Assembly (NCBI RefSeq): GCF_030817075.1
Contig: NZ_JAUSYU010000001.1
Span: 3,534,001-3,598,000, forward strand
Source of the DNA: Arthrobacter sp. V1I9
GTDB lineage: Bacteria; Actinomycetota; Actinomycetes; Actinomycetales; Micrococcaceae
Direction: 5' to 3'
DNA: 64,000 bases
Shown: positions 42,945-64,000 of the stretch, one piece after another
Position numbering within the stretch: the first letter of the stretch is position 1
Layout: every line of letters begins with the position of its first letter
Made by a program: the position numbers and the translations under genes
Notes under the pieces: model-generated
The model's database searches: none
Told to the model about the DNA's origin: nothing
The model's input: the letters and a program-made list of their open reading frames with translations, nothing else

Positions 42945-42988
42945 CCTGCGAGCGTACCGGAGTCCCCGGACGCCGGACTTGCCGGGCC

Positions 42989-44163: not shown

Positions 44164-44973
44164 CTACGTGGCGGTTCCGCGCACCCTTCCGCCCAGGCGG
44201 GCTGTGACCTTCCCGGCTGCGGCGGCGCATGATTCACCGAGCGCCTGCAACCGGTCCTGGGATACGCGGAACCGGGGCGCCGGGATCAGGACCGCGGCCA
44301 CCACTTCGCCGCGGTGGTCGTAGACAGGCGCTGCCAGGCCCACTTCGTCAATGGAGGTTTCCCCGTAGTTGATGGCCCAGCCGCGCCGGAGGTCGTCCTT
44401 CAGACGGACAAGGTAGGCGTCCAGGCTGGGCTCATCCAGGCCCGGGTAGGTGATGGCACCACTGCTGAGGAGGGAACGGACGCGGGGTTCCGGTTCCCGG
44501 GCGAGGAACACCTGCACGGAAGCGCTGAGGGCGTCGCTGTAGCGGGCACCGAGCGGGGTGGTGTGCTTGATCTGGTGGTGGCTGGGGATCTGCTCCACAC
44601 AGATGGACTCGTCCCCGCTCCACACCATGAGCGCGCTGGTTTCGCCGGTCTGCTCCGACAGTTCGCGCAGCACCGGGTAGGCAACGCGCCGCTCCTCGAG
44701 CTCCGCCAGCAGGGGTCCCGCCACCGCAATCAACCCGAGTCCCAGCCGGAAGCGGCGGGTCTCGGCGTCCCGTTCCACCAGGTGTTCCTGCTCGAAGGTG
44801 GCCAGGATCCTGGAGACGGTGCTTTTGTGCAGCCCGACGCGGTTGGCGATCTCGGTGACCCCGAGGAGCGGCTCATCCGCCGTGAAGGTGCGGAGGACGG
44901 CGATCGCGTTGACGATGACGGACGCACCCTTGCTGTCGCCGCTGCCTGTGGTCTCGGGTTCTGTTGCGCTCAT
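44164..44973 (-). CDS. IclR-family transcriptional regulator (candidate creatine-use regulator)
   Basis: A 269-residue regulator: N-terminal winged helix (VIVNAIAVLRTFTADEPLLGVTEIANRVGLHKSTVSRILATF, about residues 18-60) and C-terminal IclR effector domain (ALMVWSGDESICVEQIPS, GWAINYGETSIDEVGLAAPVYD). IclR proteins usually repress neighbouring catabolic genes until an effector binds. It lies directly downstream of creatinase on the same strand, so creatine, sarcosine or a related compound is a reasonable effector (inference). ATG 44973. Confidence 0.9.
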   Translation of the reverse strand: MSATEPETTGSGDSKGASVIVNAIAVLRTFTADEPLLGVTEIANRVGLHKSTVSRILATFEQEHLVERDAETRRFRLGLGLIAVAGPLLAELEERRVAYPVLRELSEQTGETSALMVWSGDESICVEQIPSHHQIKHTTPLGARYSDALSASVQVFLAREPEPRVRSLLSSGAITYPGLDEPSLDAYLVRLKDDLRRGWAINYGETSIDEVGLAAPVYDHRGEVVAAVLIPAPRFRVSQDRLQALGESCAAAAGKVTARLGGRVRGTAT

Positions 44974-45003
44974 GGTGCTACCCATCATTCCCTAAGGGCG
45001 GCC

Positions 45004-45038
45004 GGAAGCGGCGCCACCGGATTGATGACGCCGCTTCC
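45004..45038 (-). terminator. Hairpin between creatinase and the IclR gene
   Basis: A 10-bp stem (45004-45013 with 45029-45038) with 15-nt loop, 22 bases after the creatinase stop. No T-run follows on the minus strand, so attenuation rather than full termination is possible. Confidence 0.45.
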
Positions 45039-45059
45039 AGGTATGGCACCGTTGAAAAA

Positions 45060-46313
45060 CTAGGCACCGATGATGTTGTACTCGGGACCGAACGGGAACT
45101 TGGTGATGTTCTCGGCACCGTCCTCCCCCACCACCAGGATGTCGTGCTCGCGGTAGCCGCCGGCGCCCGGCTGGCCGTCCAGGACCGTGATCATCGGTTC
45201 CATGGACACCACCATGCCCGGTTCGAGCACGGTATCGATGTCCTCGCGGAGCTCCAGACCGGCTTCCCGGCCGTAGTAGTGGCTGAGGACGCCGAACGAG
45301 TGTCCGTAGCCGAAGGTGCGGTTGGCCAGCAGGCCATGGCCGACGTAGATCTCGTTGAGTTCGGCGGCGATGTCCTTGCAGACCGCCCCCGGCTTGATAA
45401 GTTCGAGGCCGCGCTTGTGGACTTCGACGTTGATGTTCCACAGCTCCAGGGAGCGGGCGTCGGGTTCGCCGTAGAACAGGGTGCGCTCAAGGGCGGTGTA
45501 GTAGCCGGAGGTCATGGGGAAGCAGTTCAGGGACAGGATGTCGTGTTCCTGGATTTTGCGGGTGGTGGCCCAGTTGTGAGCGCCGTCGGTGTTGATGCCG
45601 GACTGGAACCACACCCAGGTGTCGCGGATTTCGGAGTCGGGGAAGGTCCGGGCGATCTCGTGCACCATGGCCTCGGTGCCGATCAGGGCGACCTCGTACT
45701 CGGAGATTCCGGCGGTAATGGCGTTGCGGATGGCTTCGCCGCCTAGGTCACCGATCCGTGCTCCGTGCTTGATGACCTCGATTTCCTCGGCGGATTTGAT
45801 CATGCGCTGGCGCATGGCTGCCTGCGCCACGTCCACCAGGGTTGCGGAGGGGAATGCGGCCTGGATCTTGTTGCGGTTCTCCAGCGGTAGGGAGTCGTCC
45901 TCGACGCCGAGACGGCGGGGGTTGATGCCGCGGGTGCGCAGGACTTCCTGGATGGCGAAGATGTAGTTGTCGCGGCGCCAGTCCGTGTAGACGATGTTAT
46001 CGCCGTAGCTCCGCCGCCAAGGCATCCCGGCGTCGATATTGGCGGTCACGGTGACGGTGTCATCCTTGGTGACCACCATGCCGTAGGGGCGGCCGAACGT
46101 GGTGAACAGGAAGTCGGAGTAGTACTTGATGGAGTGGTAGCTGGTGAGGACGACGGCGTCGAGGTCCTTTTCTTCCATGATGCGGCGGAGCCCGGCGAGC
46201 CTGCGCTCAAACTCGGCGGCAGAGAAGGTGAGGCGGACTTTTTCGCCGTTCTTGAGGACCTTCGTGCGCTCCAGTTCGGCGACGGTGGTGGCGTTCTCGG
46301 TGGTGATGGTCAT
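45060..46313 (-). CDS. Creatinase (creatine amidinohydrolase)
   Basis: Hydrolyses creatine to sarcosine and urea in the cytoplasm. The 417-residue protein has the creatinase N-terminal domain and a C-terminal pita-bread fold. Its sequence follows Pseudomonas putida creatinase closely as I remember it: TSYHSIKYYSDFL, SGINTDGAHN, TALERTLF, GYGHSFG.LSHYYGREAGLELREDIDTVLEPGM. His246, Glu276 and Glu372 fall where that enzyme has H232, E262 and E358, which distinguishes it from metal-binding Xaa-Pro peptidases of the same fold. ATG 46313 follows AGAAAGG. A promoter and TTGC-type operators lie upstream. No creatininase or sarcosine oxidase gene is next to it. Confidence 0.93.
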   Translation of the reverse strand: MTITTENATTVAELERTKVLKNGEKVRLTFSAAEFERRLAGLRRIMEEKDLDAVVLTSYHSIKYYSDFLFTTFGRPYGMVVTKDDTVTVTANIDAGMPWRRSYGDNIVYTDWRRDNYIFAIQEVLRTRGINPRRLGVEDDSLPLENRNKIQAAFPSATLVDVAQAAMRQRMIKSAEEIEVIKHGARIGDLGGEAIRNAITAGISEYEVALIGTEAMVHEIARTFPDSEIRDTWVWFQSGINTDGAHNWATTRKIQEHDILSLNCFPMTSGYYTALERTLFYGEPDARSLELWNINVEVHKRGLELIKPGAVCKDIAAELNEIYVGHGLLANRTFGYGHSFGVLSHYYGREAGLELREDIDTVLEPGMVVSMEPMITVLDGQPGAGGYREHDILVVGEDGAENITKFPFGPEYNIIGA

Positions 46314-46357
46314 CGTGGTGGGCCTTTCTGGGGTTCTACGAAGCTAGAAGAGGAGCG

Positions 46358-46385
46358 GTTGCAATCTGCGCAACGCTGTTGCAAC
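46358..46385. promoter_or_regulatory. Candidate IclR operator upstream of creatinase
   Basis: GTTGC-N7-GCAAC (46358-46374) is followed at once by the palindrome GTTGCAAC (46378-46385). The block lies immediately downstream of the creatinase -10 box, where a repressor would block transcription. More GCGAT/TTGCG repeats occur further along (46429-46438, 46504-46520). Confidence 0.5.
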
Positions 46386-46414
46386 AGCCTAGGGGTGATT
46401 TTCACCACGGTCAA
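46386..46414 (-). promoter_or_regulatory. Predicted promoter of creatinase
   Basis: On the minus strand TTGACC (46414-46409), a 17-bp spacer and TAGGCT (46391-46386) form a good vegetative actinobacterial promoter, about 73 bases before the start codon. Confidence 0.55.
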
Positions 46415-46586
46415 TGGGCTTCCGTATCTGCGATCGCAATTTTGGCGGCAATGCAGGACGGTACGGCACCGATGCATTCACTGAAGCAATCTCGCCATAC
46501 GTTGCGATAATAGGAATCGCGTTGCGCAGGTGCGGCTACGAGGCCTGAAAATATAACAAGGGCGGGCGTTGTACTCGGCACTTCTC

Positions 46587-46615
46587 TTGACACCCGTTGT
46601 GACGGCTGACATATT
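46587..46615 (+). promoter_or_regulatory. Predicted promoter of the mscR operon
   Basis: A consensus -35 TTGACA (46587-46592), 17-bp spacer and -10 CATATT (46610-46615). The leader to ATG 46787 is about 165 bases. Confidence 0.6.
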
Positions 46616-46786
46616 TTCAGTACGCGCTATGTGCATCGTGTTGTGCATTACGCAATTAGGACGTGAGCGGCCAAAGCGCACTGGGCTGGGGAGCGGCAGC
46701 AATGAGAAGGTTGAACCCGGGCCGGTTGGCCTGCCCGGAATACCGCGGCCAGGAGTCCGGGGACTTAGGAAAGGAACACCAGTTTC

Positions 46787-47890
46787 ATGGTTCACAAAGT
46801 CAAGGCAGTCATTGCCAAGGAAAAGAACGCCCCGGTGTCAGTGCAGACCATCCTGGTTCCGGACCCGGGTCCGGGTGAGGCCCTGGTGGACATCCTGACC
46901 TGCGGGGTCTGCCACACAGACCTGCATTACAAGCAGGGTGGCATCACCGACGATTTCCCCATCCTGCTGGGCCACGAGGCTACGGGTGTGGTCAGCGCCG
47001 TTGGCGAGGGCGTCACCGAAGTTGCCCCGGGTGACCGCGTCATCCTGAACTGGCGTGCCGTCTGCGGTGAGTGCCGGGCATGTGCCAAGGGCCAGCCGCA
47101 GTACTGCTTCAACACGCACAACGCCACGCAGAAGATGACCCTTGAGGACGGTACGGAGCTCTCCCCCGCGCTGGGCATCGGTGCTTTCGCCGAGAAGACC
47201 CTCGTGGCGGCAGGGCAGTGCACCAAAGTCGACCCCGAGGCTGATGCTGCCGCCGTCGGGCTGCTGGGCTGCGGCGTGATGGCCGGCATCGGTGCCGCCA
47301 TTAACACCGGCGAGGTCAAGCGCGGCGAATCCGTGGCCGTGATCGGCTGTGGCGGCGTGGGCATCGCCGCGATCGCCGGGGCCAGGCTGGCCGGCGCCAC
47401 CACCATCATCGCCGTGGACATCGACGCCAACAAAGTGGAAATGGCCAAATCCCTGGGCGCCACCCACGGCGTGGACTCCAGCAAGGAAGACCCCATCGAG
47501 GCCATCCGCGCCCTCACCAACGGCAACGGCGCAGACGTGGTGATTGACGCCGTCGGACGTCCCGAAACGTACAAGCAGGCGTTCTACGCCCGCGACCTCG
47601 CTGGCCGCGTGGTGCTGGTGGGCGTCCCGACGCCGGACATGCAGCTCGAGTTGCCCCTGCTGGACGTCTTTGGCCGGGGCGGGTCGCTGAAGTCCTCCTG
47701 GTACGGCGACTGCCTGCCCTCCCGCGACTTCCCCATGCTGGTGGCGCACTACAAGCAGGGCAACCTGGACCTGGACGCGTTTGTCACCGAACGCATCACC
47801 ATCGAGCAGGTGGAAGAAGCCTTCGCCAGGATGCACGAGGGCAAGGTCCTGCGCTCCGTCGTTGAGATCGAGCCGGCGGTGGCTTCCTGA
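46787..47890 (+). CDS. mscR: S-(hydroxymethyl)mycothiol dehydrogenase (mycothiol-dependent formaldehyde dehydrogenase)
   Basis: A 367-residue zinc medium-chain alcohol dehydrogenase. It oxidises the formaldehyde-mycothiol adduct to S-formylmycothiol with NAD+. Catalytic zinc ligands lie in [10 protein letters not shown] (about residue 38) and GHEATG; the structural zinc site is [15 protein letters not shown] (about 90); the NAD-binding [13 protein letters not shown] follows near 190. It heads an operon with a beta-lactamase-fold protein and an FdhF-type gene, a full formaldehyde-to-CO2 route. Formaldehyde would come from betaine and sarcosine demethylation. ATG 46787 follows AGGAAAGGA. Confidence 0.93.
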
Positions 47891-48510
47891 TGGGTGTCCA
47901 GATCGAGAACCTGGTCACCTCGGGCACGTTTTCGCTCGACGGCGGCACCTGGGACGTGGACAACAACGTCTGGATCGTGGGCAACGACGAGGAATGCGTC
48001 ATCATCGACTCCCCGCACGACGCCGCCGCGATCATCAACCAGGTGAAGGGCCGGAAGGTCCTGGCCATCCTCCTCACGCACGCGCACAACGACCACATCG
48101 GTGCCGCCCGCGAGGTAGCCGACGCCGTCGGAGCCCCGATCCACCTGAACCCGGAAGACCACATCCTGTGGGAGCAGGTCTACCCGGACTTCAAACCGGA
48201 CCGTTCCCTGGCTGATGGTGACGTATTCGAGGTGGGCGGGGCGACGCTGCAGGCGATCCACACGCCCGGCCACTCCCCCGGTTCCACCTGCTTCTACCTC
48301 GAAAGCGAAGGGACCGTCTTCACCGGGGACACACTCTTCAACGGCGGCCCGGGTGCCACCGGCCGCTCGTACAGCGATTACCCCACCATCCTCACCTCCA
48401 TCCGCGAACGGCTGCTGACGCTGCCGCCCGAAACCGTGGTCCGCACAGGGCACGGCGACAACACAACGATCGAGGCCGAGCGGGAAACGCTGGCGAAGGT
48501 TTCGCAGTAG
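47890..48510 (+). CDS. Metallo-beta-lactamase-fold hydrolase, candidate S-formylmycothiol hydrolase
   Basis: A 206-residue metal-dependent hydrolase. The metal-binding THAHNDH motif is at about residues 60-66, followed by HTPGHSPGS, GDTLFNGGPGATGRS and GHGDNT. Its ATG shares one base with the mscR stop, so translation is coupled. In actinobacteria this pair is usual, and hydrolysis of S-formylmycothiol to formate and mycothiol is the natural missing step (inference); glyoxalase-II-like thioesterase activity is the family background. Confidence 0.88.
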   Translation: MGVQIENLVTSGTFSLDGGTWDVDNNVWIVGNDEECVIIDSPHDAAAIINQVKGRKVLAILLTHAHNDHIGAAREVADAVGAPIHLNPEDHILWEQVYPDFKPDRSLADGDVFEVGGATLQAIHTPGHSPGSTCFYLESEGTVFTGDTLFNGGPGATGRSYSDYPTILTSIRERLLTLPPETVVRTGHGDNTTIEAERETLAKVSQ

Positions 48511-48535
48511 TCAGTGAACTAAGGAAGTTGGAACA

Positions 48536-50888
48536 ATGAAGTTCGGCAAGCAGCCCGCCCCCGTGGCGGACATCAATGAGGACAACCTCGAAGTCCACAA
48601 GCCGAAAACGGAGGCGGCGGGCGTCAAGGCCGTGATGGTGGCGCTGGAGCGCGCCGTGGCCCAGGCCGGGGTGACGCGGACGACGCAGTCGCTGCTGCGG
48701 TTGAACCAGCGGGGCGGGTTCGACTGCCCGGGCTGTGCCTGGCCGGAGTCGGACAAGAAGCGCAAGGCTGCAGAGTTCTGTGAGAACGGCGCCAAGGCCG
48801 TGGCCGAGGAAAACACCCTTCGGACGGTGGGCGCCGAGTTCTGGGCCCGGCATTCCATTGCTGAGCTCGCAACGAAGACGGAGTACTGGCTGGGCAACCA
48901 GGGCCGGCTGAGTGAACCGGTGGTGATCCGGGAGGGTGAAACGCACTATTCGCCGATTTCCTGGGCGGACGCCTTCGAGCTGATCGGCGAGCACGTCCGG
49001 GCCAGCACTCCGGACCGCTGTGTCTTCTACACCTCCGGGCGCACGGCGAACGAGACGGCCTTTATGTACCAGTTGTTCGCCCGTGCCCTGGGTACCAACA
49101 ACCTGCCGGACTGCTCAAACATGTGCCACGAGTCCTCGGGCTCGGCGCTGAACCCGACCATCGGGATCGGCAAGGGGACAGTGTCGCTGGATGATATCCA
49201 CGATTCCGAGCTGATCTTCGTCGTCGGGCAGAACCCGGGGACCAACCACCCCCGGATGCTGTCCGCGCTGAAGGAATGCAAGGACAAGGGCGGCAAGGTG
49301 GTGGCAGTCAATCCGCTGCCCGAGGCCGGACTGTTCAACTTCAAGGATCCCCAGACGGTCTCGGGTGTGGTGGGCGGCGGAACGCCGCTGGCCGACGAGT
49401 ACCTGCAGATCAAGGTGGGCGGTGACCTGGCACTGTTCCAGGCGCTGGGCCACCTCCTCCTGGCCGAGGAGGCACGCAACCCGGGCACCGTCGTCGACCA
49501 TTCCTTCGTGGAAGCGCAGACGGACGGGTTCGACGCCTACCGCGAGGCCCGCGGTGAGCTTGACTGGGCGGAAACCGAAAAGGCCACCGGCCTGTCCCGC
49601 GAACAGATCGAAACCGTGGCCGGGATGCTGATCCGGTCCAAGGCCACCATCTTCTGCTGGGCCCTGGGCGTCACACAGCAGCCGCACTCGGTGGACACCA
49701 TCAAGGAAATGGTCAACGTCCTGCTGCTGCAGGGCAACTTCGGCAAGCCAGGCGCCGGAGCCTGCCCGGTCCGCGGCCACTCCAACGTCCAGGGCGACCG
49801 GACCATGGGCATCTGGGGAAAAACCGAAGGAATGGCTCCTCGAAGCCTTGGATGGCGAGTTTGGGATCACTTCCCCGCGGCACCACGGCCATGACGCAGT
49901 GGAGGCCATGGAGGCCTTCGAACGCGACGAGGTGGACGTCTTTGTGTCCATGGGTGGCAATTTCTCCCTGGCGTGCTCAGACACCGAAACCCTCGAGGCC
50001 GGCATGCAGCGGATCGGCCTGACCGTGCACATTTCCACCAAACCGAACCGTTCGCATGTGGTGCACGGCCGCACCTCGCTGATCCTCCCGACCCTGGGCA
50101 GGACGGACAAGGACGACAAGCACCCCAAGGGCGCCCAGTTCCTGTCCGTGGAGGACTCCATGTCCGTGGTCCACTCCACACAGGGCAGGCTGACGCCGGT
50201 ATCCGAGCACCTGCTGGCCGAGCCGGTCATCGTGGCGAGGATGGCCGAGGCGACCTTTGGTCCGGACCACCCGGTGGACTGGAAAGGCATGGCCGAGGAC
50301 TACGACGTGATCCGCGAGCACATTGAACGCGTCCTGCCTGGCTTCGAGGACTTCAACGCCCGGGTCCGGACCAAGAACGGCTTTGTCCTGCCCAACCCGC
50401 CGCGGGACACCCGTTCCTTCAAGACGGACATCGGCCGCGGCCGGTTCACGGTCAGCCCGCTGGAATACCTCACCCCGCCGGACGGGCACCTGGTGCTCCA
50501 GACCATCCGCAGCCACGACCAGTACAACACCACCTACTACGGCCTTGACGACCGCTACCGCGGCATCTCCGGCGGCCGCCGCGTGATCCTGATCCACCCG
50601 GAGGACCTGGCCGAGCTCGGCTTCCAAGACCGGGACCTCGTGGACGTGGTCAGCACCTTCCGCGGTGTCGACCGCCACGCCGAGAAATTCCGCCTCGTGG
50701 CCTACCCCACCGCCAAGGGCTGCGCCGCGGCGTACTTCCCCGAGGCCAACGCCCTGGTCCACAAGGAGAACGTGGCGCGGGAGTCCAACACTCCGGGCTT
50801 CAAGGCGATGTTTGTCCGCTTTGTCCCGCATCTTGCGGAAACCACCGAGGTGGAGGCTTCCGGGGAGCTTGAGCCGGCGACGGTCTAG
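48536..50888 (+). pseudogene. fdhF: FdhF/YdeP-family molybdopterin oxidoreductase (candidate formate dehydrogenase), frameshifted
   Basis: A molybdopterin-dependent oxidoreductase of about 780 residues in two frames. The first piece (48536 on) has RGGFDCPGCAWP, SGRTANETAF and NMCHESSGSAL, where the Cys is the likely Mo ligand, and VRGHSNVQGDRTMGIWG. At GGGG 49815-49818 followed by five A, the frame breaks. Removing one G restores TMGIWEKPKEWLLEALDGEFGI and the rest runs to 50888 with FVSMGGNFSLACSDTETLE, HVVHGRTSLILP and VVSTFRGVD. The intact protein would oxidise formate in the cytoplasm, but YdeP relatives also have other suggested roles. It is the third gene of the mscR operon, ending at a strong terminator. 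Confidence 0.85.
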
Positions 50889-50909
50889 TTCCTCACGCCG
50901 TTACACAGC

Positions 50910-50959
50910 GACGGCGACATTCGGGTTTGTGCCGAATGTCGCCGTCGTCAGTTTTTTTT
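50910..50959 (+). terminator. Intrinsic terminator of the mscR-fdhF operon
   Basis: A perfect 15-bp stem (50910-50924 with 50932-50946), a 7-nt loop and a run of eight T (50952-50959), beginning 22 bases after the fdhF stop. A textbook intrinsic terminator. Confidence 0.9.
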
Positions 50960-50969
50960 GAGTCTCCGC

Positions 50970-51188
50970 CTACACCGGGTTGTTTCCGTCAGGCTGGGCT
51001 TCGGGATCCAGGTCCTTGCCGTAGCCGGTGGCAGAAGCAAGCCCTCCCACCTGTTGTCCGGCGTTGGTTTGTCCCGGCGTGAAACCGCTGTCCGGCGCGT
51101 CCTGCGCTTCTCCCCCGGAATCTGGCGCAACGTCCTGCCGCAGGTGCTCGTCGTCAGGAATGTCTTTGGAAACCTCTTCGTCAACCAT
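50970..51188 (-). CDS. Small acidic hypothetical protein
   Basis: A 72-residue acidic protein (VDEEVSKDIPDDEHLRQDVAPDSGGEAQD) with a Gly/Gln-rich end, predicted disordered. An in-frame TTG at 51200 could add four residues. No family recognised; similar in composition to the proteins at 30136, 41296 and 41671. Confidence 0.55.
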   Translation of the reverse strand: MVDEEVSKDIPDDEHLRQDVAPDSGGEAQDAPDSGFTPGQTNAGQQVGGLASATGYGKDLDPEAQPDGNNPV

Positions 51189-51304
51189 TTCACCAGCCAA
51201 GCATCAGTGGCCTGCCACCGCAAGGGGTTCCGCGCGTGGTGGCAGCTATGGAGTCTTGGGCTGAAACCTTCCGATGGCAAGGGCTGGCGTTGTAACGTGA
51301 TGGC

Positions 51305-52150
51305 GTGATCGTCCCCGATATTCCCCAGAACGCCGTGGCGGTCGCGGATCACTACGACGAGCTCGATCCGATCTATCGTCGAGTGTGGGGCGAGCATGTT
51401 CATCACGGGCTCTGGGCAACGGGTCGCGAGACGCCCGCCGAGGCCGTCGAGGCGCTAGTCGACACGGTCGCTGACCGGCTGCGTCTTATGCCCGGCGAGG
51501 CGTGCGTCGACATCGGCTGCGGCTATGGCTCCACCGCACGGCAACTCGCGGTGACGCGCAAGGTCCGCGTCGCCGGCTTCACGCTTTCAGCTGAGCAGGC
51601 CCACTACGCCGCCGCCCATCCCGTACCCGATGTGGACATCCATCTCCGCGACTGGCTCGTCAACGGACTGCCAAATACCTCGGCCAATGCCGCATGGGCG
51701 ATCGAGTCGAGCGAGCACATGGTCGACAAGCCCAGGTTCTTCGACGAGGCGCATCGCGTGTTATCGCCCGGTGGCCGCTTCGTCGTCTGCGCGTGGCTCG
51801 CCGAGACTGATGCCAGCGGTTGGAAGGTTCGCCACCTGCTCGAGCCGATCTGCCGTGAAGGGCGCCTGCCCTCGATGGGCACGCGCGAGGAGTATGAGGC
51901 GATGGCAGTGGCGGCAGGCTTTGCGATCGATGGCTATGAGGATGTCAGCCGCCGCGTCGCGCGCACATGGACGATCTGCGCCCGTCGACTTGTGAAAGCC
52001 TTGCTCGTCGACCGCGAGACCCGTCGCCTCGCCCTTGGCGCACGCAACCGCATCTTCGTTCTGAGCTTCCCCCGCCTGATCCTGGCCTACCGCACTGGTG
52101 CGATGCGCTATGGGATATTCACGCTGTCTAAGGCGACGGAGAGCAGCTGA
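51305..52150 (+). CDS. SAM-dependent methyltransferase, UbiE/tocopherol-methyltransferase-like
   Basis: A 281-residue class I methyltransferase. The N-terminus YDELDPIYRRVWGEHVHHGLW is typical of the small-molecule (gamma-tocopherol/sarcosine-type) group; SAM motif I is CVDIGCGYGSTARQLA about residue 70, followed by AIESSEHM and RVLSPGGRFVVCAW. GTG 51305 is the start. Codon choice differs somewhat from neighbours (more GCG, TCG, ATC-G contexts and a TTA codon), which hints at acquisition. Substrate unknown; no biosynthetic partners lie nearby. Confidence 0.85.
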   Translation: MIVPDIPQNAVAVADHYDELDPIYRRVWGEHVHHGLWATGRETPAEAVEALVDTVADRLRLMPGEACVDIGCGYGSTARQLAVTRKVRVAGFTLSAEQAHYAAAHPVPDVDIHLRDWLVNGLPNTSANAAWAIESSEHMVDKPRFFDEAHRVLSPGGRFVVCAWLAETDASGWKVRHLLEPICREGRLPSMGTREEYEAMAVAAGFAIDGYEDVSRRVARTWTICARRLVKALLVDRETRRLALGARNRIFVLSFPRLILAYRTGAMRYGIFTLSKATESS

Positions 52151-52379
52151 CACTCGTGTGGGCGCTCTAGTGAGGTGGTCGGGTAGGCAGGTAGAGGTGC
52201 CGGGAAAGACAGGTAGCAGCGGCTCTGGTGCCTGTTTGCCCGCCAGTCGTAGGCTCTGAGCAATCACGCCGGCCGGGTGGGCAGGTTCACTGTGCGGCCA
52301 CTCCACCATAGAGGGTGCGATTCCGGGATGTGCCCGCGAAACCCGCGGGCAGGCCGGCCCAAGGGGACGGGAATAATTC

Positions 52380-53117
52380 ATGCATCGAAGCATTGCACCA
52401 GCGACACTTGCCATCGCAGCAGCGGCGTTAAGCCTCACAGGCTGCGGCGGGCCGGACCAAACAAACACGACCCCACCGCCCGCGGCCACGTCCTCCTCCG
52501 CGACGACCGCCTCAGCGCCGGCCAAGGCCTACAGCAACGAGGACCTCAATGCAATTGTCACCGGCCTCAAGGATGCCCAGGGGAATGCCCTGACCGTGGT
52601 CCCGGCCGCCCAGATCGACCAGGGGTTGATAGCAGCCCGGGAAATGCTCAAAACCGCGGTTATAACGCCCGAGGCCTGCGGGGTGCTGTTTGATAACAAC
52701 ACCCAGGTTCCCGAGGGCAGCACCTACGCCGCCGGGGCGAGCCTGGCGGGGAAGGCTCAGACGGCGACGGTCATGACGGTGTTCGCGGTCAAAGACCCTT
52801 CGGTGATGAGTGCCCAATACGAGAAGAGCGCAGCGGCGCTGGATGACTGCTCCACCTACACCGTCGAGTTGAAGGGCAAGAAGATCACCAGCGAATTGAA
52901 ACCTGTGAGCGCCGAGGTGCAGGCCGATAATTCGATGGCTGCACTGACCATCCAGACCACCCCGGAGGGGCAGAAGCAGGTCTGCAATCTCACCGTCTTC
53001 GGAGTCAAGGGGAACCTGGCGGTCACTGCTATGAAGAGCGGTACCGTGGGTGCAGTCACCGCAGCCGACGCACCCGAACTCGCCAAGCTCGTCAACGCAG
53101 CCCTCGCCGCAGGCTGA
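52380..53117 (+). CDS. Predicted lipoprotein
   Basis: A 245-residue exported lipoprotein. A type II signal peptide (ALSLTGCGG, lipidated Cys about residue 22) is followed by a Thr/Ser/Pro-rich linker and a domain of about 190 residues with two Cys (EACGVLF and DDCSTY) plus QVCNLTVF. The domain resembles mycobacterial and actinobacterial LpqN/PknH-sensor-like lipoproteins in outline only. ATG 52380 lies after a GGGACGGG stretch. Function unknown. Confidence 0.8.
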   Translation: MHRSIAPATLAIAAAALSLTGCGGPDQTNTTPPPAATSSSATTASAPAKAYSNEDLNAIVTGLKDAQGNALTVVPAAQIDQGLIAAREMLKTAVITPEACGVLFDNNTQVPEGSTYAAGASLAGKAQTATVMTVFAVKDPSVMSAQYEKSAAALDDCSTYTVELKGKKITSELKPVSAEVQADNSMAALTIQTTPEGQKQVCNLTVFGVKGNLAVTAMKSGTVGAVTAADAPELAKLVNAALAAG

Positions 53118-53272
53118 CGAATGCATCGTGCGGGCGCCCGTTTCAGAGCCGCTCTGGAATTCATCCGGGCAACCAGCTATGGCATTTGGCCACGTAAGTC
53201 AGTTGAACCCTCTAAACGAAGGAGCAGCGTTATGCGTGCAGCCGAGGTGACGGGTGGGGCATGATCGGGAAT

Positions 53273-53578
53273 TCACAGGGCGTTGTCATCCTGAGAGGGT
53301 TCAAGCCCTTCCCCCGGTTTGGTTCCGTTTTGGCTGTAGGGTGCCAGACGCCGCGGGGGCAGCTCTTTGATCAGCTCATTGACGGCGTGGGCGACGAGGT
53401 TACGTTCGTGGGCTGACAATTCCATGGAACCGTTCAGGTACGCGTCGAGCTCGTACTCGCCGGCAGCGCCGGTGAAGCTGAAATAGCGCATCCAGACAGC
53501 ATGCAATGGAAGCCCGGCTTCTTCCATTGCGTCCCGGGTGGCCTGTGCCTGTTCGTCCGGGTCATCTAAAACCTCCAC
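53273..53578 (-). CDS. Hypothetical protein
   Basis: A 101-residue acidic, mostly helical protein (RDAMEEAGLPLHAVWMRYFSFTGAAGEYELDAYLNG, SAHERNLVAHAVNELI). No family recognised. It lies 8 bases after the stop of the GAF-ANTAR gene on the same strand and is probably translated from the same mRNA. Confidence 0.65.
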   Translation of the reverse strand: MEVLDDPDEQAQATRDAMEEAGLPLHAVWMRYFSFTGAAGEYELDAYLNGSMELSAHERNLVAHAVNELIKELPPRRLAPYSQNGTKPGEGLEPSQDDNAL

Positions 53579-53586
53579 CGGGACTC

Positions 53587-54303
53587 CTACTCGTCGGTCA
53601 TTCCACTGACGATTTCCCTTGCGACAAGATACAGAGGCTTATCTTCTCCCCGGGAAGCCGACAGCATGACGTTGAGTGCATCCTGGGATGTGATGTTCAT
53701 TCGCCCGATGAGCACTCCTTGTGCCGTGGAAATCATGTCACGCTGAGCCAGGGCGTCCACCAGCTGTGAACTCAGCCGCTGGGTGGCTTCCCTGTCCCGG
53801 GCGTTACCGAGCATGACGGCGGCAGGAACGGCCAGCCGCTCGATCAGGAAGATCGAGTGGTCATCAAAGACGTGAGGCGCCGGGGAGTAGACCTTGAAGG
53901 CTCCGATATGCCGTCCCTCGGTGGTGAGAGGGGCACTCAGAACGGACCGTAGGGGCAGATTTGCTACTGCCGCGGTCCATTCCGGCCACCGCGTCTCTTC
54001 CCTGGTGTCTTGAATGATGACGGCGCGCTGTTCTGCCCAGGCGCTCAGGCATGGCCCCTGGCCGAGCTCGTACTGCAGTTTGTCCGCCTGAAGCACCACC
54101 GGATCAGTTGCCCCGGCGCTTTCCCTGCGGCCTCGCGCGTTGATCAGCGAAGCGCCGGCGCCGGTTGCATTGGGTACCGAGTCCTTGAGGACGTACGCAA
54201 GGGACTGCACGGCTTTGGATGCCTTCTCCTCGGTGAGGAACCCACCTGCCATCTGTTCCGTCAGCGCAGCAAGCCTGCCTGTTAGTGGCAATGGATTGTC
54301 CAT
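53587..54303 (-). CDS. GAF-ANTAR regulator
   Basis: A 238-residue protein with a GAF domain (about residues 25-165, including ELGQGPCLSAW, ETRWPEWTAAV and RSVLSAPL) and a C-terminal ANTAR domain (QRDMISTAQGVLIGRMNITSQDALNVMLSASRGEDKPL). It would bind nascent mRNA hairpins. Two ANTAR proteins (this and the next gene) sit in tandem just downstream of the dimethylglycine oxidase operon. Confidence 0.88.
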   Translation of the reverse strand: MDNPLPLTGRLAALTEQMAGGFLTEEKASKAVQSLAYVLKDSVPNATGAGASLINARGRRESAGATDPVVLQADKLQYELGQGPCLSAWAEQRAVIIQDTREETRWPEWTAAVANLPLRSVLSAPLTTEGRHIGAFKVYSPAPHVFDDHSIFLIERLAVPAAVMLGNARDREATQRLSSQLVDALAQRDMISTAQGVLIGRMNITSQDALNVMLSASRGEDKPLYLVAREIVSGMTDE

Positions 54304-54390
54304 GGCTGCCTCACCTCTGTCATGCCCCGTGCGGTCCGGGCTGACGCGGAACGTGATCGTCTCATTTCTGCTTCCTTCCGCTCTGGGCGT

Positions 54391-54615: not shown

Positions 54616-54710
54616 TCAAAAGTCTAGCCTTATCGCCCAGCTATGCCGCCCCCTGAAGCTGGCGTTGAAAAAGCCGCACAGTGAAGGTCCCCACCGGGTC
54701 CGGACACGAG

Positions 54711-54753
54711 GAAGGCCTGCCGGCTTGGGAACTTCCCAAGCCGGCAGGCCTTC
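54711..54753. terminator. Long perfect hairpin downstream of dimethylglycine oxidase
   Basis: 21-bp perfect arms (54711-54731 and 54733-54753) with a 1-base centre, about 44 bases after the dmg stop on the minus strand. GC-rich, no T-run; likely the terminator of the BCCT-purU-dmg operon. Confidence 0.7.
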
Positions 54754-54796
54754 GTTGTCGGCGGTGACCGCAGGGCTCAACCAGCGGACAGGCCGG

Positions 54797-58271
<3,475 letters not shown>

Positions 58272-58280
58272 GGTGTGCTC

Positions 58281-60221
58281 CTAGGGTGCTTGCGTGTGCT
58301 TGGTGGCGACGGCGGAATCCGCCGGAATGGGATTGACTGCGGTGGAGCCGGCCGTACTGGAACTGCCGTGGCACGGCGCGTCCTCTGAACAGCGTTCACC
58401 GCATTCATGCTTTGTCACGAGGTCAAACTGGGCGCCGCCGTGCTGGTCCACGCCCGTGCGGATGGCGCGCTCCACCACCGAATCAGCCAGCCGCCGTCGC
58501 AGGGACAGCGGATCCCGGCGCAGGTCCTTGACCAGGGCGAAGCACAGCAGCAGCATGACCAGCACGAACGGCAGGGCCGCCACAATGGTGATGCGCTGCA
58601 GGCCGGAGAGCGCCTCGGACGGTTTGTCGCCGCCGGCCAGCATCATCACGGCAGCTACTGCACCTGTCAGCAGGCCCCAGAAGATGATCAGGCCGCGCTT
58701 CGGGTCAGAGGATCCGTTGGAGCTCAGGGACGCCATGATGATCGACGCCGAATCCGCTCCGGTGATGAAGAAGATGGCCACCAGGACCATGGCCAGGACA
58801 ATGACCGCTCCGGTCAGCCAGGCAGGCATGGACATGTTCTTCACGAGGTCGAACAGTGCTCCGTCGAAGTTGATCGAAGGTGATCCGCTTGCCATGGACA
58901 CCAGGCCAGGGGTGCCGGCCTTGTCCGCCTCCTGCTGGACGTGGAAGGCCGTGCCGCCAAAGATGCCGAACCAGATGACGCTGACCACGCTGGGGACGAG
59001 CAGGACGCCGGTGACGAACTGGCGGATGGTGCGGCCGCGGCTGATGCGGGCAATAAACATGCCCACGAACGGCGTCCACGATACCCACCAGGCCCAGTAG
59101 AAGATGGTCCAGCCGGACAACCAGGTCCGCAGCGCTTCGTCACCTACGGCCTCGGTCCGCGAGGACATTTCGGCGAGGTCCCTGGCGTAGTCTCCTACCG
59201 CAGCGGGGATGAGGTTGAGGATGAACAGGGTGGGCCCGGCGACGAAAACGATGAGCGCCAGGATCACGGCCAGGACCATGTTGATGTTGGACAGCCATTG
59301 GATGCCACGGCTGATCCCGGAAATGGCCGAGGCGACGAAACAGGCGGTCAGGATGGCAACAATGGCCACCAGGACAGGGGTGCCGGTTTCGCTGATCCAC
59401 CCGTTGGATGTCAGTCCGCTGCCGATCTGGAGTGCGCCGAGGCCGAGGGACGCCGCCGTGCCGAAGAGCGTGGCAAAGATCGCCAGGATGTTGATGAACC
59501 TGCCCACCGGCCCTTCCACTGTCCTAATCCCGAACAGGGACGTGAACGCTGCGGAGATGAGCTGCCGGCGGCCGAGGCGGTAGGTGCCGTAGGCCATGGC
59601 AATTCCGACGACGGCGTACATGGCCCAGGGGTGAAGGGTCCAGTGGAAGATGGAAGTGGCCATGGCCGTCTGGACGGCCGCGGGCGTCCGTCCATCGACG
59701 GTTCCCGGCGGCGGGGAGACGAAGTGGTAGAGCGGCTCGGCCACGCCGTAGAACATTAGGCCGATGCCCATGCCGGCCGCGAACATCATGGCAATCCATG
59801 AGACCGTCCGGAACTCGGGCTTTTCGCCGTCTTTGCCCAGCGGGATGTTACCCCACTTGCCCAGGGCCAGCCACAGGACAAAAACGACGAACAATGAAGC
59901 CAGGACCATAAAGAGCCAGCCGGTGTACTCCATGACCCAGTCCAGGGCGAGGGTTGAGGTGGAGGACAGGCTGTCCCGACCCAGGAAGCCCCATGCAACA
60001 AAGGCCAGGGCGAGGATGCCCGTGATGCCGAAGGTGACTTTGTCCAGGGTGAGCTTTCGGTTTCGGCGCTCTGCCACGGCCTGTTCAGCACGGCCTTGGC
60101 GGAGTTCCTGCATGATCTGTTCGGTGTCCTCCACCTCGGCCTCCGGATGGTGGGAGACCGGCTGGGGATCCGGTTCGGGCCGGACGTCGTTGTCCGGACG
60201 GGTTTCACTGTTTAAAGCCAT
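58281..60221 (-). CDS. BCCT-family betaine/choline/carnitine transporter
   Basis: A 646-residue secondary carrier with 12 membrane segments. The Trp-rich TM8 signature is clear (GWTIFYWAWWVSWTPFVGMFIARISRGRT), as is GMGIGLMFYGVAEP in an earlier helix. It probably brings glycine betaine or dimethylglycine into the cell for the downstream enzymes. The C-terminal 45 residues are unusual, with a Cys/His cluster (HECGERCSEDAPCHG). ATG 60221 is chosen over a longer in-frame start. First gene of the BCCT-purU-dmg operon. Confidence 0.92.
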   Translation of the reverse strand: MALNSETRPDNDVRPEPDPQPVSHHPEAEVEDTEQIMQELRQGRAEQAVAERRNRKLTLDKVTFGITGILALAFVAWGFLGRDSLSSTSTLALDWVMEYTGWLFMVLASLFVVFVLWLALGKWGNIPLGKDGEKPEFRTVSWIAMMFAAGMGIGLMFYGVAEPLYHFVSPPPGTVDGRTPAAVQTAMATSIFHWTLHPWAMYAVVGIAMAYGTYRLGRRQLISAAFTSLFGIRTVEGPVGRFINILAIFATLFGTAASLGLGALQIGSGLTSNGWISETGTPVLVAIVAILTACFVASAISGISRGIQWLSNINMVLAVILALIVFVAGPTLFILNLIPAAVGDYARDLAEMSSRTEAVGDEALRTWLSGWTIFYWAWWVSWTPFVGMFIARISRGRTIRQFVTGVLLVPSVVSVIWFGIFGGTAFHVQQEADKAGTPGLVSMASGSPSINFDGALFDLVKNMSMPAWLTGAVIVLAMVLVAIFFITGADSASIIMASLSSNGSSDPKRGLIIFWGLLTGAVAAVMMLAGGDKPSEALSGLQRITIVAALPFVLVMLLLCFALVKDLRRDPLSLRRRLADSVVERAIRTGVDQHGGAQFDLVTKHECGERCSEDAPCHGSSSTAGSTAVNPIPADSAVATKHTQAP

Positions 60222-60379
60222 GAGCAAGTCCTTAGTTCGGATTCATGGGGTGGCGCTGTACTCCGGCGTCCCCAAGCCGGGCGGAAGATCGGGCTTCCTG
60301 GTATTCAGTAATCAAGGCCAGCTTTGCTTCCATCGTGGCGGCTGTTCCGTAAAGATCAACACGTCTCGCAATAAGCAAC

Positions 60380-60409
60380 AGAGTGGCTCGGATCACAGCC
60401 TGGTGTCAA
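60380..60409 (-). promoter_or_regulatory. Predicted promoter of the BCCT-purU-dmg operon
   Basis: On the minus strand TTGACA (60409-60404), an 18-bp spacer and CACTCT (60385-60380), in the 252-bp gap between gbcB and the transporter gene. The -10 box is poor, so this is tentative. Confidence 0.4.
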
Positions 60410-60479
60410 GGTTTTTCTGAACTCTTAAGCTCTATTTCTCGGTTTCCGGCCGCGCCTTGACGGTGGACCGGAACAGGGG

Positions 60480-61895
60480 CTAGGCATCGATCACCAGGTC
60501 CGTCTGCGCCGTGGAGCAGCAGGGCAGGAACTTGCCTGCCGAGATTTCCCGCGCCCGGATTCCGCCCTGGTGGTTCATATCGACCTCCCCTGAAAGCTTG
60601 ACGACCTTGCAGGAGCCGCACATGCCTTCCTTGCAGTTCGCGCCGATCCTGACGCCGGCGCGCTGGGCCGCCTCAAGGATGTGTTCGGTAGGGTCGATTC
60701 GCACATTGATGCCGGTACGCATAAAGGACATAGTGAGGCTGCCTGCTCCCACCGTGCTGAAGGTGGATGCGTCAGGGGCACCGGCTTCCGGCTCCCCGCC
60801 CGGGCTGTCGGCAGAGGGGTCGGAGCCGGGCTTGTCCGGGTCGCTGATTTCCAGCGGCAGTCCCGAGGCCTGCAGAGTTCCGTCTGCGTCGTAGCCAGGC
60901 TCGTAGAGCCCGAACGCGGCGGGCTGGCTTTCGTAGTAGTCCTCCGCGGATTCTGCGATTTCCTCGGCAATTTCCTCCGCGACGTCGGCTGCAAGTGCCA
61001 CCTCCGCCTGGTATTCAAGGAGTGTCTGGCGGTCTCCGGAGAAGAACTCCATGTAGATGGAAGTGTCGTCGACACCGACCTTCGTGAGGAGCTCGGTGGC
61101 GGTGTTCAGGTAACCCTCCGGGCCACACGCGTACACCTGGCGCCCGTTGGCGTCCGGAGCCACCTCCTCGAGCATTGCCGCCGTCAGCCTTCCGCTGAGT
61201 CCTTCCCATCCCTCCGGCGCACTGCGGTCACCCAGGGAATAGTAGACCTTGACGCGCGAGTCTACGGAGGCGATATAGGCCAGTTCCCGGTGGAAGGCAA
61301 AGCCGCCAGCATCCGAGCCGTGGTACAGCACCACAACATCGGCGTGTCCAGGCAGGGAGTGGATGGTCCGCACCATGGACATGATGGGAGTGATGCCTGC
61401 GCCGGCGGCAAGCAAAAGGTATCGTGCCCGCCGGTCGGCATCGGGCAGGTGGAATGCTCCCACCGGTCCCAACATCTCAAGGACGGTGCCGGGCTTGACG
61501 TTTTCGTGTACCCATGGCGATACCAGTCCCGTGGAGTCGCACTTGACGGTAATGCTGAAGGTCCACGGCTCGGTGGGCGAACTGGACAGCGAGTAGCTGC
61601 GGTCCACCGGTTCCTGGTCCTCACCATTTACGGGAAAGGCGACGTTCACGTACTGGCCGGCACGGAACGCCAGGGGCGCGCCGTCGCAGCGGCGGAACAC
61701 GAAGGTCATCATGGCGCCGGCCTCGGGAACCGTCTCGACGCATTCGGCCATGAACTCCTGGGGATGCCACGGGCCCAGTGCACGGGCTGCCCGGGCAGGC
61801 GTCTCAGTGCTTCCCATCACCCTGTTCCACGGCATCTCAAGACCGCGAATGCGCTGTGGTTCCTGGATTGCCGTTTCAGTGAGGAGTTCAATCAT
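60480..61895 (-). CDS. gbcB: Glycine betaine monooxygenase reductase subunit (GbcB-type, ferredoxin reductase)
   Basis: A 471-residue electron-transfer protein. The FNR-type module holds the FAD-binding RSYSLSSSP (about residue 100) and NAD-binding AAGAGITPIMSM (about 168). The C-terminal plant-type [2Fe-2S] domain has the CKEGMCGSC and C-C motifs (about 430-460). Between them lies an unusual Asp/Glu/Gly/Pro-rich linker of about 100 residues, absent in typical GbcB proteins of about 370 residues. It passes electrons to the Rieske oxygenase. ATG 61895 overlaps the gbcA stop by four bases (ATGA). Confidence 0.9.
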   Translation of the reverse strand: MIELLTETAIQEPQRIRGLEMPWNRVMGSTETPARAARALGPWHPQEFMAECVETVPEAGAMMTFVFRRCDGAPLAFRAGQYVNVAFPVNGEDQEPVDRSYSLSSSPTEPWTFSITVKCDSTGLVSPWVHENVKPGTVLEMLGPVGAFHLPDADRRARYLLLAAGAGITPIMSMVRTIHSLPGHADVVVLYHGSDAGGFAFHRELAYIASVDSRVKVYYSLGDRSAPEGWEGLSGRLTAAMLEEVAPDANGRQVYACGPEGYLNTATELLTKVGVDDTSIYMEFFSGDRQTLLEYQAEVALAADVAEEIAEEIAESAEDYYESQPAAFGLYEPGYDADGTLQASGLPLEISDPDKPGSDPSADSPGGEPEAGAPDASTFSTVGAGSLTMSFMRTGINVRIDPTEHILEAAQRAGVRIGANCKEGMCGSCKVVKLSGEVDMNHQGGIRAREISAGKFLPCCSTAQTDLVIDA

Positions 61896-63196
61896 GCCAA
61901 GTGCTCCTGCACGCGCTGCACGTACCAGTTGATGAATGCCTCCACCTGGTATTCGCTCTTCATGTACGGGCCGGGCTCGTAGGCGGGACTGCCGGCACCC
62001 TGCTGGCAGAGCTCGACGAACGCCTTGTCCTGCAGGTTCGTCTGCTTCCAGGTGTAGGTGAGCTTCTCCAGGTCGTAGTCGACACCTTCCACCGCGTCAT
62101 CAGCTACCAGCCAAGTGGTGCGCACGAGGCTCTGGTGTTCGTTGATGGGGAAGACGCCGAACGTGATGACATGGTCTCCGAGGAAATGGAACCAGCTGTT
62201 GGGCTGCAGGTGCATCGAGCAGCGGCCAAGGCGGAAGTCGGGCAAGTCCCCGAGCAGCTTCTTGGAAAGCCTGCGCCCGTCGGCGGAGAACGATTCGCCC
62301 TCTCCATCGAGTGGCTCCCGTGAGATGCGGATTCCCGCGATGCGCGTGTCAAGCTGCTCCACCACCTCGTAGGGAAGACCGTAGCGGCGGCAGCGCTCCT
62401 CGAGGGACGATTCGGCCTCCTTGTTCCGGTCCCACACTTCCTCAAGATGAGCCGGGATCAGGCCCTCCGTCAGGCCCCAGGTGGGGAAGAGGGAGCAGGC
62501 GAGCTCAGGGTGGCCGTCGCAGTGGTAGCACTCACGGTTGTTCTCCATGACGAGCTTCCAGTTGCTTTCTTCAATGATGTTCTGCTGGTACGCGATCTTG
62601 GTTTTCGAAAGATCGTGGGGCGCCAGGTAGGGCTCGAAGATCTTTGCGGTTTCGTCGAAGTCCGTCGGCGGTTCATCCGCAATGCAGACGAAGATCAGTC
62701 CGGCGACCTCGCGGCCGTGGGCGCGCTTGAGGCCGAAGCAGCTCTTGTCGAACTTCGTTTCCCCCGGCGCGGAGGCATGGATCAGGTTGCCCTCCGGGGA
62801 GTAGGTCCAGGAGTGGTAGCCGCAGACCAGGTTTCCGGTTGACCCGGCAGCTTCGGTGAGAACACGTGCGCCGCGGTGGCGGCATACGTTGTGCAGGACG
62901 TTGACGCCGCCGTCGTCGTTGCGCAGCACAATCAGGGAGTAGGGCCCGTAGTCGACGGTTACGTAGTCGCCCGGCTCCGGCAGTTCCGCGGTGCTGGCGG
63001 CATAGATCCAGTGCTGGCCGAAAATGGCCTCCATGTCGATCTTGAAGATCGAGGCATCGGTATAGAAGGGGGCATCGAGGGAGTAGCCGGTGCGCCGGAA
63101 CTCAAACAAGGCGGTAATTTCTGCCAGCTGCTCGCCAGGCAAGGAGGCAGCGATTTTTCCGCGTGTATTGAGGGGCACGTTCACTGGAGCAGTCAT
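61892..63196 (-). CDS. gbcA: Glycine betaine monooxygenase oxygenase subunit (GbcA-type Rieske)
   Basis: Demethylates glycine betaine to dimethylglycine with O2 and releases formaldehyde. The 434-residue protein shows the Rieske [2Fe-2S] ligands Cys105, His107, Cys125 and His128 (CRHRG and CGYHSW), and the mononuclear iron site in NNRECYHCDGHPEL (His225, His229). The match to GbcA, including the ENNRECYHC stretch, is strong, but choline- or carnitine-type relatives share the fold. ATG 63196 has a GGGAGGAAA site. It heads the gbcA-gbcB operon and is divergent from the LysR gene. Confidence 0.9.
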   Translation of the reverse strand: MTAPVNVPLNTRGKIAASLPGEQLAEITALFEFRRTGYSLDAPFYTDASIFKIDMEAIFGQHWIYAASTAELPEPGDYVTVDYGPYSLIVLRNDDGGVNVLHNVCRHRGARVLTEAAGSTGNLVCGYHSWTYSPEGNLIHASAPGETKFDKSCFGLKRAHGREVAGLIFVCIADEPPTDFDETAKIFEPYLAPHDLSKTKIAYQQNIIEESNWKLVMENNRECYHCDGHPELACSLFPTWGLTEGLIPAHLEEVWDRNKEAESSLEERCRRYGLPYEVVEQLDTRIAGIRISREPLDGEGESFSADGRRLSKKLLGDLPDFRLGRCSMHLQPNSWFHFLGDHVITFGVFPINEHQSLVRTTWLVADDAVEGVDYDLEKLTYTWKQTNLQDKAFVELCQQGAGSPAYEPGPYMKSEYQVEAFINWYVQRVQEHLA

Positions 63197-63275
63197 GGGT
63201 TTCCTCCCGGGAGGCATGGGTAGTGGGTGTAGCGTTGGCCACGGGTGCGCGGATGCTACCGACATGGTCGAAGAA

Positions 63276-63303
63276 CTTGTAGTAATGAGATTAGGGTCAC
63301 AAG
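63276..63303. promoter_or_regulatory. Candidate LysR binding site between gbcA and the LysR gene
   Basis: An inverted repeat CTTGT-N18-ACAAG in the 157-bp divergent gap. LysR regulators commonly bind such T-N11-A-type dyads near the promoter they activate. Position fits control of both genes. Confidence 0.4.
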
Positions 63304-63353
63304 AGCTGCAACAAAAGCGCAAGTTTTTGAAGATAACCATGCAGAATTGATGC

Positions 63354-64000
63354 ATGATCGATCCAAGGCTCATCACACTCCGCGTGTTCGCCCGGTGCGG
63401 CACCATAGGCGCGACCGCGGAGCTGACCGGATATTCCCCTTCTGCCGTCTCCGCGCAGTTGCGGGAGCTCCAGCGCGTGCTTGGAATGCAGCTGCTGACG
63501 AAAGACGGCCGGGGCGTCCGGCTTACCGCCACGGGTCGCTTTCTCGTGGCGGGCTCGGATCCCCTCATTGCCCAGTGGGAGAGCCTGCGGGCCGCAGCCA
63601 TGGAGGCCGGTGACCAGGTGCAGGCCCATTTTGGCCTCGGCGGATTTTCCACTGCAGCCGCCCAGTTGCTCGCGCCGCTGGCCGCCGCACTGCGCTCAAC
63701 ACGCCCGCTGCTGGAGGTACAGGTTCTTGAGGCTGATCCAGCCCGCTGCTTCGATTTGTTGGTCGCGGAACGAATAGACCTTGCGGTCATTGTCGCCACG
63801 CAGTCCGACACTTATGGCGAGGACGATCCCCGCTTCGAGCAGACAGTTCTGCTCGACGATCCACTGGACGTGATCATTCCTGGTGACCATCCGCTGGCGT
63901 CACGGGAAACAGCGACACTTGAAGACCTGGCATCGGAACCCTGGATCACGGAGGCCGCTGGTTCCACCTACCATTCCCTTTTCATCGCGGCCTTCACTGC
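63354..64000 (+). CDS. LysR-family transcriptional regulator, 3' end outside window
   Basis: Read directly: ATG 63354 opens a frame without a stop to base 64000 (215 codons). The N-terminal winged helix (IDPRLITLRVFARCGTIGATAELTGYSPSAVSAQLRELQRVLGMQLL) is the LysR DNA-binding domain, followed by the start of the effector-binding domain (AHFGLGGFSTAAAQLLAPLAAAL). Divergent from gbcA, so it is a good candidate for the betaine-pathway activator. The C-terminal half is missing. Confidence 0.88.
   Translation, partial: MIDPRLITLRVFARCGTIGATAELTGYSPSAVSAQLRELQRVLGMQLLTKDGRGVRLTATGRFLVAGSDPLIAQWESLRAAAMEAGDQVQAHFGLGGFSTAAAQLLAPLAAALRSTRPLLEVQVLEADPARCFDLLVAERIDLAVIVATQSDTYGEDDPRFEQTVLLDDPLDVIIPGDHPLASRETATLEDLASEPWITEAAGSTYHSLFIAAFT

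Follow-up and report, generated by a model that had tools for sequence, protein, structure and literature searches.

The stretch of DNA analysed here (the window) spans 64,000 nucleotides, positions 3534001-3598000 of the 4.05-Mb single-contig genome of Arthrobacter sp. V1I9 (genome G000, contig C1), and its last third carries genes for the catabolism of betaine, dimethylglycine, creatine and formaldehyde. Based on its conserved promoter elements, this region is quite probably a mosaic of catabolic units under separate control, all of which feed into sarcosine and one-carbon metabolism. In the proposed scheme, the gbcA-gbcB-BCCT-purU-DMGO unit (DMGO, N,N-dimethylglycine oxidase) would take up betaine and demethylate it to sarcosine under the control of a LysR-type regulator, which at its ATCATGCA...TGCA box would also control in trans a distant gene, fdhA, whose product would remove the formaldehyde that the oxygenase releases. 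The creA-iclR unit would be repressed by its own IclR-family product, bound at GCAAC-N3-GTTGC-N7-GCAAC sites in the promoter until creatine, or a compound related to it, releases the protein; looping could be supported by a further site 143 bp upstream. The mscR-MBL-fdhF unit, in which fdhF is frameshifted as assembled, would serve general formaldehyde oxidation.

The creA-IclR unit and its operator

Gene identities were assigned by domain-profile and structure-library searches of the window proteins, and presence was counted among 101 same-genus genomes at set E-value limits. The features of the creatine unit are as follows.

44164-44988, minus strand: IclR-family regulator (PF01614, PF09339), candidate creatine regulator, 71 bp behind creA
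45060-46313, minus strand: creatinase gene creA (1chm, 584 bits, 65.7% identity over 397 aligned positions)
46358-46382, minus strand: exact creA operator, GCAAC-N3-GTTGC-N7-GCAAC, 44 bp before the creA start
46501-46525, minus strand: second creA operator-like site with two mismatches, 143 bp upstream of the first

By its full-length likeness to solved creatinases, the creA product is a creatinase; the AHN, ALERTLF, YYGREAG and MEPM regions, which we take to hold the catalytic His, Glu, Arg and Glu residues, are identical to those of 1chm in the alignment. Both domains of the neighbouring regulator, HTH_IclR and IclR_C, scored over their cut-offs (52.4 vs 22 and 80.7 vs 24).

The operator pattern was derived from the sequences upstream of creA or of the MFS transporter gene that precedes it in other genomes. 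It has 86 exact sites in 72 of the 101 genomes, while the reversed pattern used as a control has none, and 84 of the 86 lie on the creA strand at most 4 kb upstream of creA. Exact sites were found in 72 of the 88 genomes with creA (61 of the 77 that had not been used to read the pattern) vs none of the 13 without it; six genomes, that of the window included, have a site no more than 200 bp from creA itself. The IclR regulator has the same distribution, with an orthologue of at least 73% identity in 85 of the 88 creA genomes and in 0 of the 13 others. Sixteen creA genomes have no exact site: 13 of them carry IclR and have a site with one mismatch before the MFS gene, and the other three (G018, G049 and G086) are exactly the creA genomes that have no IclR orthologue (G049 has only a 51% match), their best operator match having at least four mismatches over the 2.6-2.8 kb retrieved. 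G004 has its IclR gene about 46 kb from creA, with a separate exact operator 38 bp ahead of the IclR start. Among the named creA loci, an operator with at most two mismatches accompanies IclR in 45 of 49 cases and occurs in 2 of the 26 loci without it (Fisher p 2e-13, a value that ignores descent). This comparison covers the 75 of 80 loci that could be scored, L127 having a short upstream sequence and L093, L105, L117 and L132 being cut off downstream.

Judged from its close relatives, the window strain has lost the MFS transporter gene that heads their creA unit. L031 and L035 have an MFS-sized gap between mscR and creA, and the gap of L031, which was read, holds the transporter gene; the corresponding gap of the window measures 473 bp and lacks the gene. 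The best homologue of the transporter elsewhere in the genome has 41% identity; of the 80 named creA loci, 56 hold a match to the transporter at some position.

The creA genes of G018, G049 and G086 sit behind pucR and an NCS1 permease gene, with a creatininase in G018 and G086 (L180 and L182) and a protein of the CE4 family in G049 (L181). The creA regions of A. hankyongi and A. mangrovi (L100:5590-8825 and L111) contain two NCS1 permeases from separate clades, along with several creA operator cores.

The gbcA box, the LysR regulator and a distant fdhA

The betaine and dimethylglycine unit occupies the right-hand end of the window.

54797-57304, minus strand: N,N-dimethylglycine oxidase (1pj5, 1329 bits, full length)
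57342-58271, minus strand: purU, formyl-tetrahydrofolate deformylase (TIGR00655, 330 bits vs 286)
58281-60227, minus strand: BCCT transporter (TIGR00842, 489 bits vs 408)
60480-61895, minus strand: GbcB-like reductase (NF058606, 237 bits, below the cut-off of 500)
61892-63196, minus strand: GbcA-like Rieske oxygenase (NF058607, 386 bits, below the cut-off of 670; structures 3n0q, 4qup, 3vca)
63306-63322, minus strand: TTGCGCTTTTGTTGCAG, second conserved gbcA promoter element
63333-63358, minus strand: gbcA box, ATCATGCA-N3-A-N3-TGCA-N2-G-N-T-N-T
63354-64000, continuing beyond the window end, plus strand: LysR-type regulator (PF03466, PF00126), candidate betaine regulator

The oxidase combines the DAO-FAO-GCV_T architecture with a full-length match to the Arthrobacter DMGO. 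A first-pass annotation of the sequence had named gbcA and gbcB as the genes converting betaine to dimethylglycine. The Rieske oxygenase and its reductase are indeed present, with the domains of such a pair (PF00355 and PF00848; PF00970, PF00175 and PF00111 for the FAD, NAD and Fe-S parts); since both proteins fall below the NCBIfam equivalog cut-offs, betaine as their substrate rests on context. The BCCT protein is likewise below the betaine-specific cut-off (NF047988, 526 bits vs 650). From its first start codon, the gbcA reading frame overruns the LysR gene, and a start at about 63196 is better.

The two promoter elements, ATCATGCA...TGCA and TTGCGCTTTTGTTGCAG, are common to most of the 21 gbcA promoters read, G001 and G003 not among them. 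Fifty-two exact copies of the box were found in 48 genomes (none for the reversed pattern), 48 of them upstream of gbcA, at a distance of 134-149 bp in 47 cases and 531 bp in one. A divergent LysR gene accompanies the box (at most two mismatches) in 27 of 27 gbcA upstream regions, vs 0 of 13 regions without it; these 40 regions were taken from 69 matches, 20 chosen for having no exact box and 20 for having one. The four extra boxes are all in genomes with gbcA, and three of them (in the window genome, G021 and G029) precede fdhA, a thiol-independent formaldehyde dehydrogenase gene (TIGR02819, about 750 bits vs 637) whose promoter block is nearly identical among the three copies. The boxed fdhA of the window genome lies about 3.2 Mb away in contig coordinates. 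The simplest reading of this recurrence is that the LysR-type betaine regulator would also turn on fdhA to clear formaldehyde. The earlier proposal that the neighbouring mscR operon is the formaldehyde partner of betaine demethylation is thus not borne out, because the betaine box stands at the distant fdhA and none is found at mscR: a scan allowing up to four mismatches gave no gbcA box in the mscR-creA intergenic region.

The fdhA leader also contains a near-perfect 90-nt hairpin (about L174:5315-5405, minus strand; -56 to -65 kcal/mol), present in L175 and L176 as well and, as a core, in L016 and L017; it may be a repeated extragenic palindrome. At Rfam gathering thresholds, no RNA element was found in the window, L023, L174 or L175, which cover the island and the fdhA leader; one sub-threshold match at L174:5000-5700 was judged to be due to chance.

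One island or several units

Within the genus, creA is present in 88, gbcA in 68, DMGO in 85 and soxA in 91 of the 101 genomes. The clustering of creatinase, gbcAB and the mycothiol formaldehyde operon within 20 kb, which had been considered worth noting, is real by gene-neighbourhood comparison but is a minority arrangement: creA, gbcA, DMGO and mscR lie within 25 kb in nine of the 101 genomes, V1I9 included, and soxA joins them within 40 kb in six. Draft assemblies lower these counts because they split the genes over contigs, creA and gbcA being on different contigs in 25 of the 62 genomes that have both. DMGO has 112 matches in 85 genomes; a second copy is common (G001, G003, G007 and others), has 67-69% identity to that of the window and frequently shares a contig with the first.

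The same first-pass annotation had described the stretch as one combined island, and we consider it very unlikely that the genes were gathered for joint use under common control. Their products do all meet at sarcosine and at methylene-tetrahydrofolate or formaldehyde, and of the 85 genomes with both creA and soxA, 27 have the two within 20 kb of each other, as do 25 of the 78 with creA and DMGO. Nevertheless, the operators of the creatine part and the betaine part are unrelated, each goes with a regulator of its own, and neither operator has an exact copy at the promoters of the other units; the four-gene set is confined to the nine genomes above, and the betaine box recurs before the distant fdhA. 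A 40-kb scan for further sites (up to three mismatches for the creA operator and four for the gbcA elements) found no operator common to the whole island. No match to either lies at the DMGO or glyA promoter; one creA-operator match with three mismatches is inside glyA (68700-68724), and gbcA-element matches with four mismatches are inside genes. It is also unlikely, though a little less so, that the creA operator is bound by another regulator, for global nitrogen or carbon control, and that IclR is a mere neighbour. The pairing of IclR with the operator is a prediction, and AmtR, a nitrogen regulator, controls the creatine genes of Corynebacterium according to an excerpt of PMC8864220. A global regulator should have numerous sites, whereas this site is nearly unique to creA units, is absent from the three creA genomes that have no IclR and in G004 moves with the IclR gene.

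Several points weigh against the scheme of separate units, each with its own regulator and operator. Looping is weakly supported, since a second upstream site (up to three mismatches) occurs in only 27 of 51 loci (50 named loci and the window; 0 of 51 in the control interval), at spacings of 121-168 bp. L124 and L129 have the operator and no IclR within 3 kb; L084, L126, L133 and L142 have IclR and no site with at most two mismatches (L084 has a short upstream sequence); and one exact site in G072 has no creA nearby. Two creA-operator matches with three mismatches lie upstream of BCCT (60363-60399), within the other unit. The operator was read from 11 genomes that were later among those tested, the remaining extra gbcA box, that of G041, is not followed by fdhA, and the look at fdhA covered the extra-box loci. 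Lastly, the associations are uncorrected for phylogeny; the box, LysR and gbcA are inherited together, and the evidence free of linkage therefore comes down to the fdhA and G004 cases.

Sarcosine and choline genes beyond the window

The sequence past the window was read from genome positions 3597000-3616999 (L023) and 3614000-3633999 (L223). In window coordinates, the following features were located.

from 67792: glyA, first gene of the sox operon
70809-73751: soxA, within soxBDAG
77959-79506, minus strand: pucR
79463-81136: NCS1 permease
81174-82133: CE4 hydrolase, 17 kb past the window end
84018-85571: betaine-aldehyde-dehydrogenase-like gene (596 bits, below the cut-off of 668.6)
85600-87336: betA (844 bits vs 732)

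The sarcosine-consuming enzyme had been noted as lying outside the window, and it does: the operon, in the order glyA-soxBDAG-sdaA-second purU, begins 3.8 kb and the soxA match 7.1 kb past its end. With this operon, the pathway runs all the way to glycine, serine and pyruvate. The chemistry that the first-pass annotation assigned to the gene families is right, all the families that it named were found in the window, and they are known ones, as it stated; their enzymes are ordinary. Genes for choline, betaine, dimethylglycine, creatine and sarcosine thus lie within about 43 kb, and a urease is located at genome position 3,441,472. No creatininase (PF02633) match was found in the whole genome.

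A candidate creatininase of the CE4 family

We tentatively propose, in the face of some contrary evidence and as a possibility that we hold to be rather less than even, that the CE4 protein encoded at 81174-82133 is a non-orthologous creatininase. Creatinine would be imported by the NCS1 permease and opened to creatine by this metal-dependent hydrolase of the polysaccharide-deacetylase fold; creA would split the creatine to sarcosine and urea, and the sarcosine would pass through soxBDAG. This would explain why a strain that has neither a PF02633 creatininase nor the creatine transporter keeps creA. Considering the genes beside creA, CE4 and creatininase were found the one in 12 loci and the other in 30, together in 0 of 84, with a direct exchange in L081/L082. 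The place in the operon is the same as that of creatininase (TIGR04448/PF02633), pucR|NCS1-X beside creA; the difference is that X is here a protein of the CE4/PuuE branch, which at an E-value of 1e-8 matches only PF01522 in Pfam and not PF02633. No creatininase model of NCBIfam matches it either, and it could act as a creatininase only as an analogue of that family.

It is only slightly improbable that the pucR|NCS1-CE4 genes form instead a system for allantoin or another cyclic imide. However, the identity of the CE4 protein to the PuuE allantoinase is about 24%, and its TIGR03212 score of 80 bits is below the cut-off of 424.6. It keeps both metal histidines (a role that we presume for these residues), while PuuE does not have the second. 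None of the eight genes tested near CE4 genes belongs to an allantoin-specific family, although that of L130 encodes an Amidohydro_3 protein. The genes around CE4 point towards sarcosine, and the L081/L082 exchange is with creatininase. If the CE4 protein is a creatininase, creatinine opening would have a second protein fold, offering a new creatininase scaffold, and the genes of this group now called polysaccharide deacetylase would need renaming. On an Aminobacter plasmid (L227), a CE4 relative of 45% identity comes immediately after a gene for an M24 'Xaa-Pro peptidase', with ectoine-type ABC transporter genes alongside.

Relation to known systems

Creatine and betaine are possible nitrogen and carbon sources for soil bacteria, and the enzymes acting on creatinine and creatine serve in clinical tests. 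As predictions from sequence, the following are new: two pairs of regulator and operator, the link to fdhA, a creatine transporter lost from this strain, and a CE4 protein that is a candidate creatininase. The compact, nearly unique creA operator would define a testable IclR-type creatine regulon in Actinomycetota, and the shared box would tie betaine demethylation to one particular formaldehyde dehydrogenase far away in the genome rather than to the neighbouring mscR, as had been assumed. A search of the open-licence literature gave no article combining creatine, IclR and creatinase; among the matches listed, none concerned creatine regulation by an IclR protein or betaine regulation by a LysR protein of this type, and none had the phrase polysaccharide deacetylase.

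The glyA-soxBDAG-(sdaA)-purU sarcosine operon and the dmg operon of Arthrobacter and Corynebacterium are known (Meskys 2001 and Suzuki 2005, as cited in parts of PMC3534580 and PMC4941409). The same gene order stands just outside the window, and DMGO is with purU inside it; the differences are that the dmg unit is here headed by genes for betaine uptake and for the oxygenase, and that creA, NCS1-CE4 and betA are close by. Creatine clusters in which a transporter adjoins creatinase have also been described (PMC8864220, in part), as has the order soxA-crnA-creA in Arthrobacter TE1826 (an excerpt of PMC4941409). In close relatives of V1I9, creA similarly follows an MFS transporter gene, whereas V1I9 has neither that transporter nor creatininase, and the candidate regulator is an IclR protein with a defined operator rather than AmtR or the LysR-type SoxR. 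Arthrobacter Rue61a carries the sox operon as well as DMGO; according to a portion of PMC3534580, it can grow on creatine, sarcosine, betaine and choline and not on creatinine.

The mscR unit and neighbouring genes

46787-47890, plus strand: mscR, S-(hydroxymethyl)mycothiol dehydrogenase (TIGR03451, 670.5 bits vs cut-off 512.9)
47890-48510, plus strand: MBL-fold hydrolase (PF00753)
48536-49894, plus strand: 5' part of a frameshifted fdhF/YdeP-family gene (TIGR01701 positions 1-409)
49848-50888, plus strand: 3' part of the same gene (TIGR01701 positions 416-741)

The presence of mscR in 97 of the 101 genomes fits housekeeping formaldehyde removal. Both creA sites lie in the intergenic region that it shares with creA, more than 260 bp from its start. 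One in-frame TGA is flagged in many relatives; selenocysteine was rejected, since no alignment has a stop inside the protein and just one of the 12 copies aligned from flagged relatives shows a stop, at the natural C-terminal end. The fdhF family, which had been listed among the formaldehyde genes, is present but broken as assembled: a one-base frameshift, at a junction near 49,815, divides it into two open reading frames in different frames (550 and 338 bits), neither reaching the TIGR01701 cut-off of 582. A programmed frameshift was rejected because both pieces are in one continuous frame in all four relatives compared; the break more probably stems from a recent mutation, or from misassembly of a homopolymer run. 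The genome has another FdhF-family gene, which is intact, at positions 2,888,073-2,890,283.

Directly to the left of the region are a HAD-family hydrolase gene (43336-44154) and a glycerophosphodiester phosphodiesterase gene (42132-43070), which have no clear link to the pathway. Between fdhF and DMGO (51305-54303) are genes for a CMAS-like methyltransferase, a possible lipoprotein and a GAF-ANTAR protein, for which L031, L034 and L035 gave no match; the fdhF-DMGO gap measures 3.9 kb in the window vs 2.1 kb in L031.

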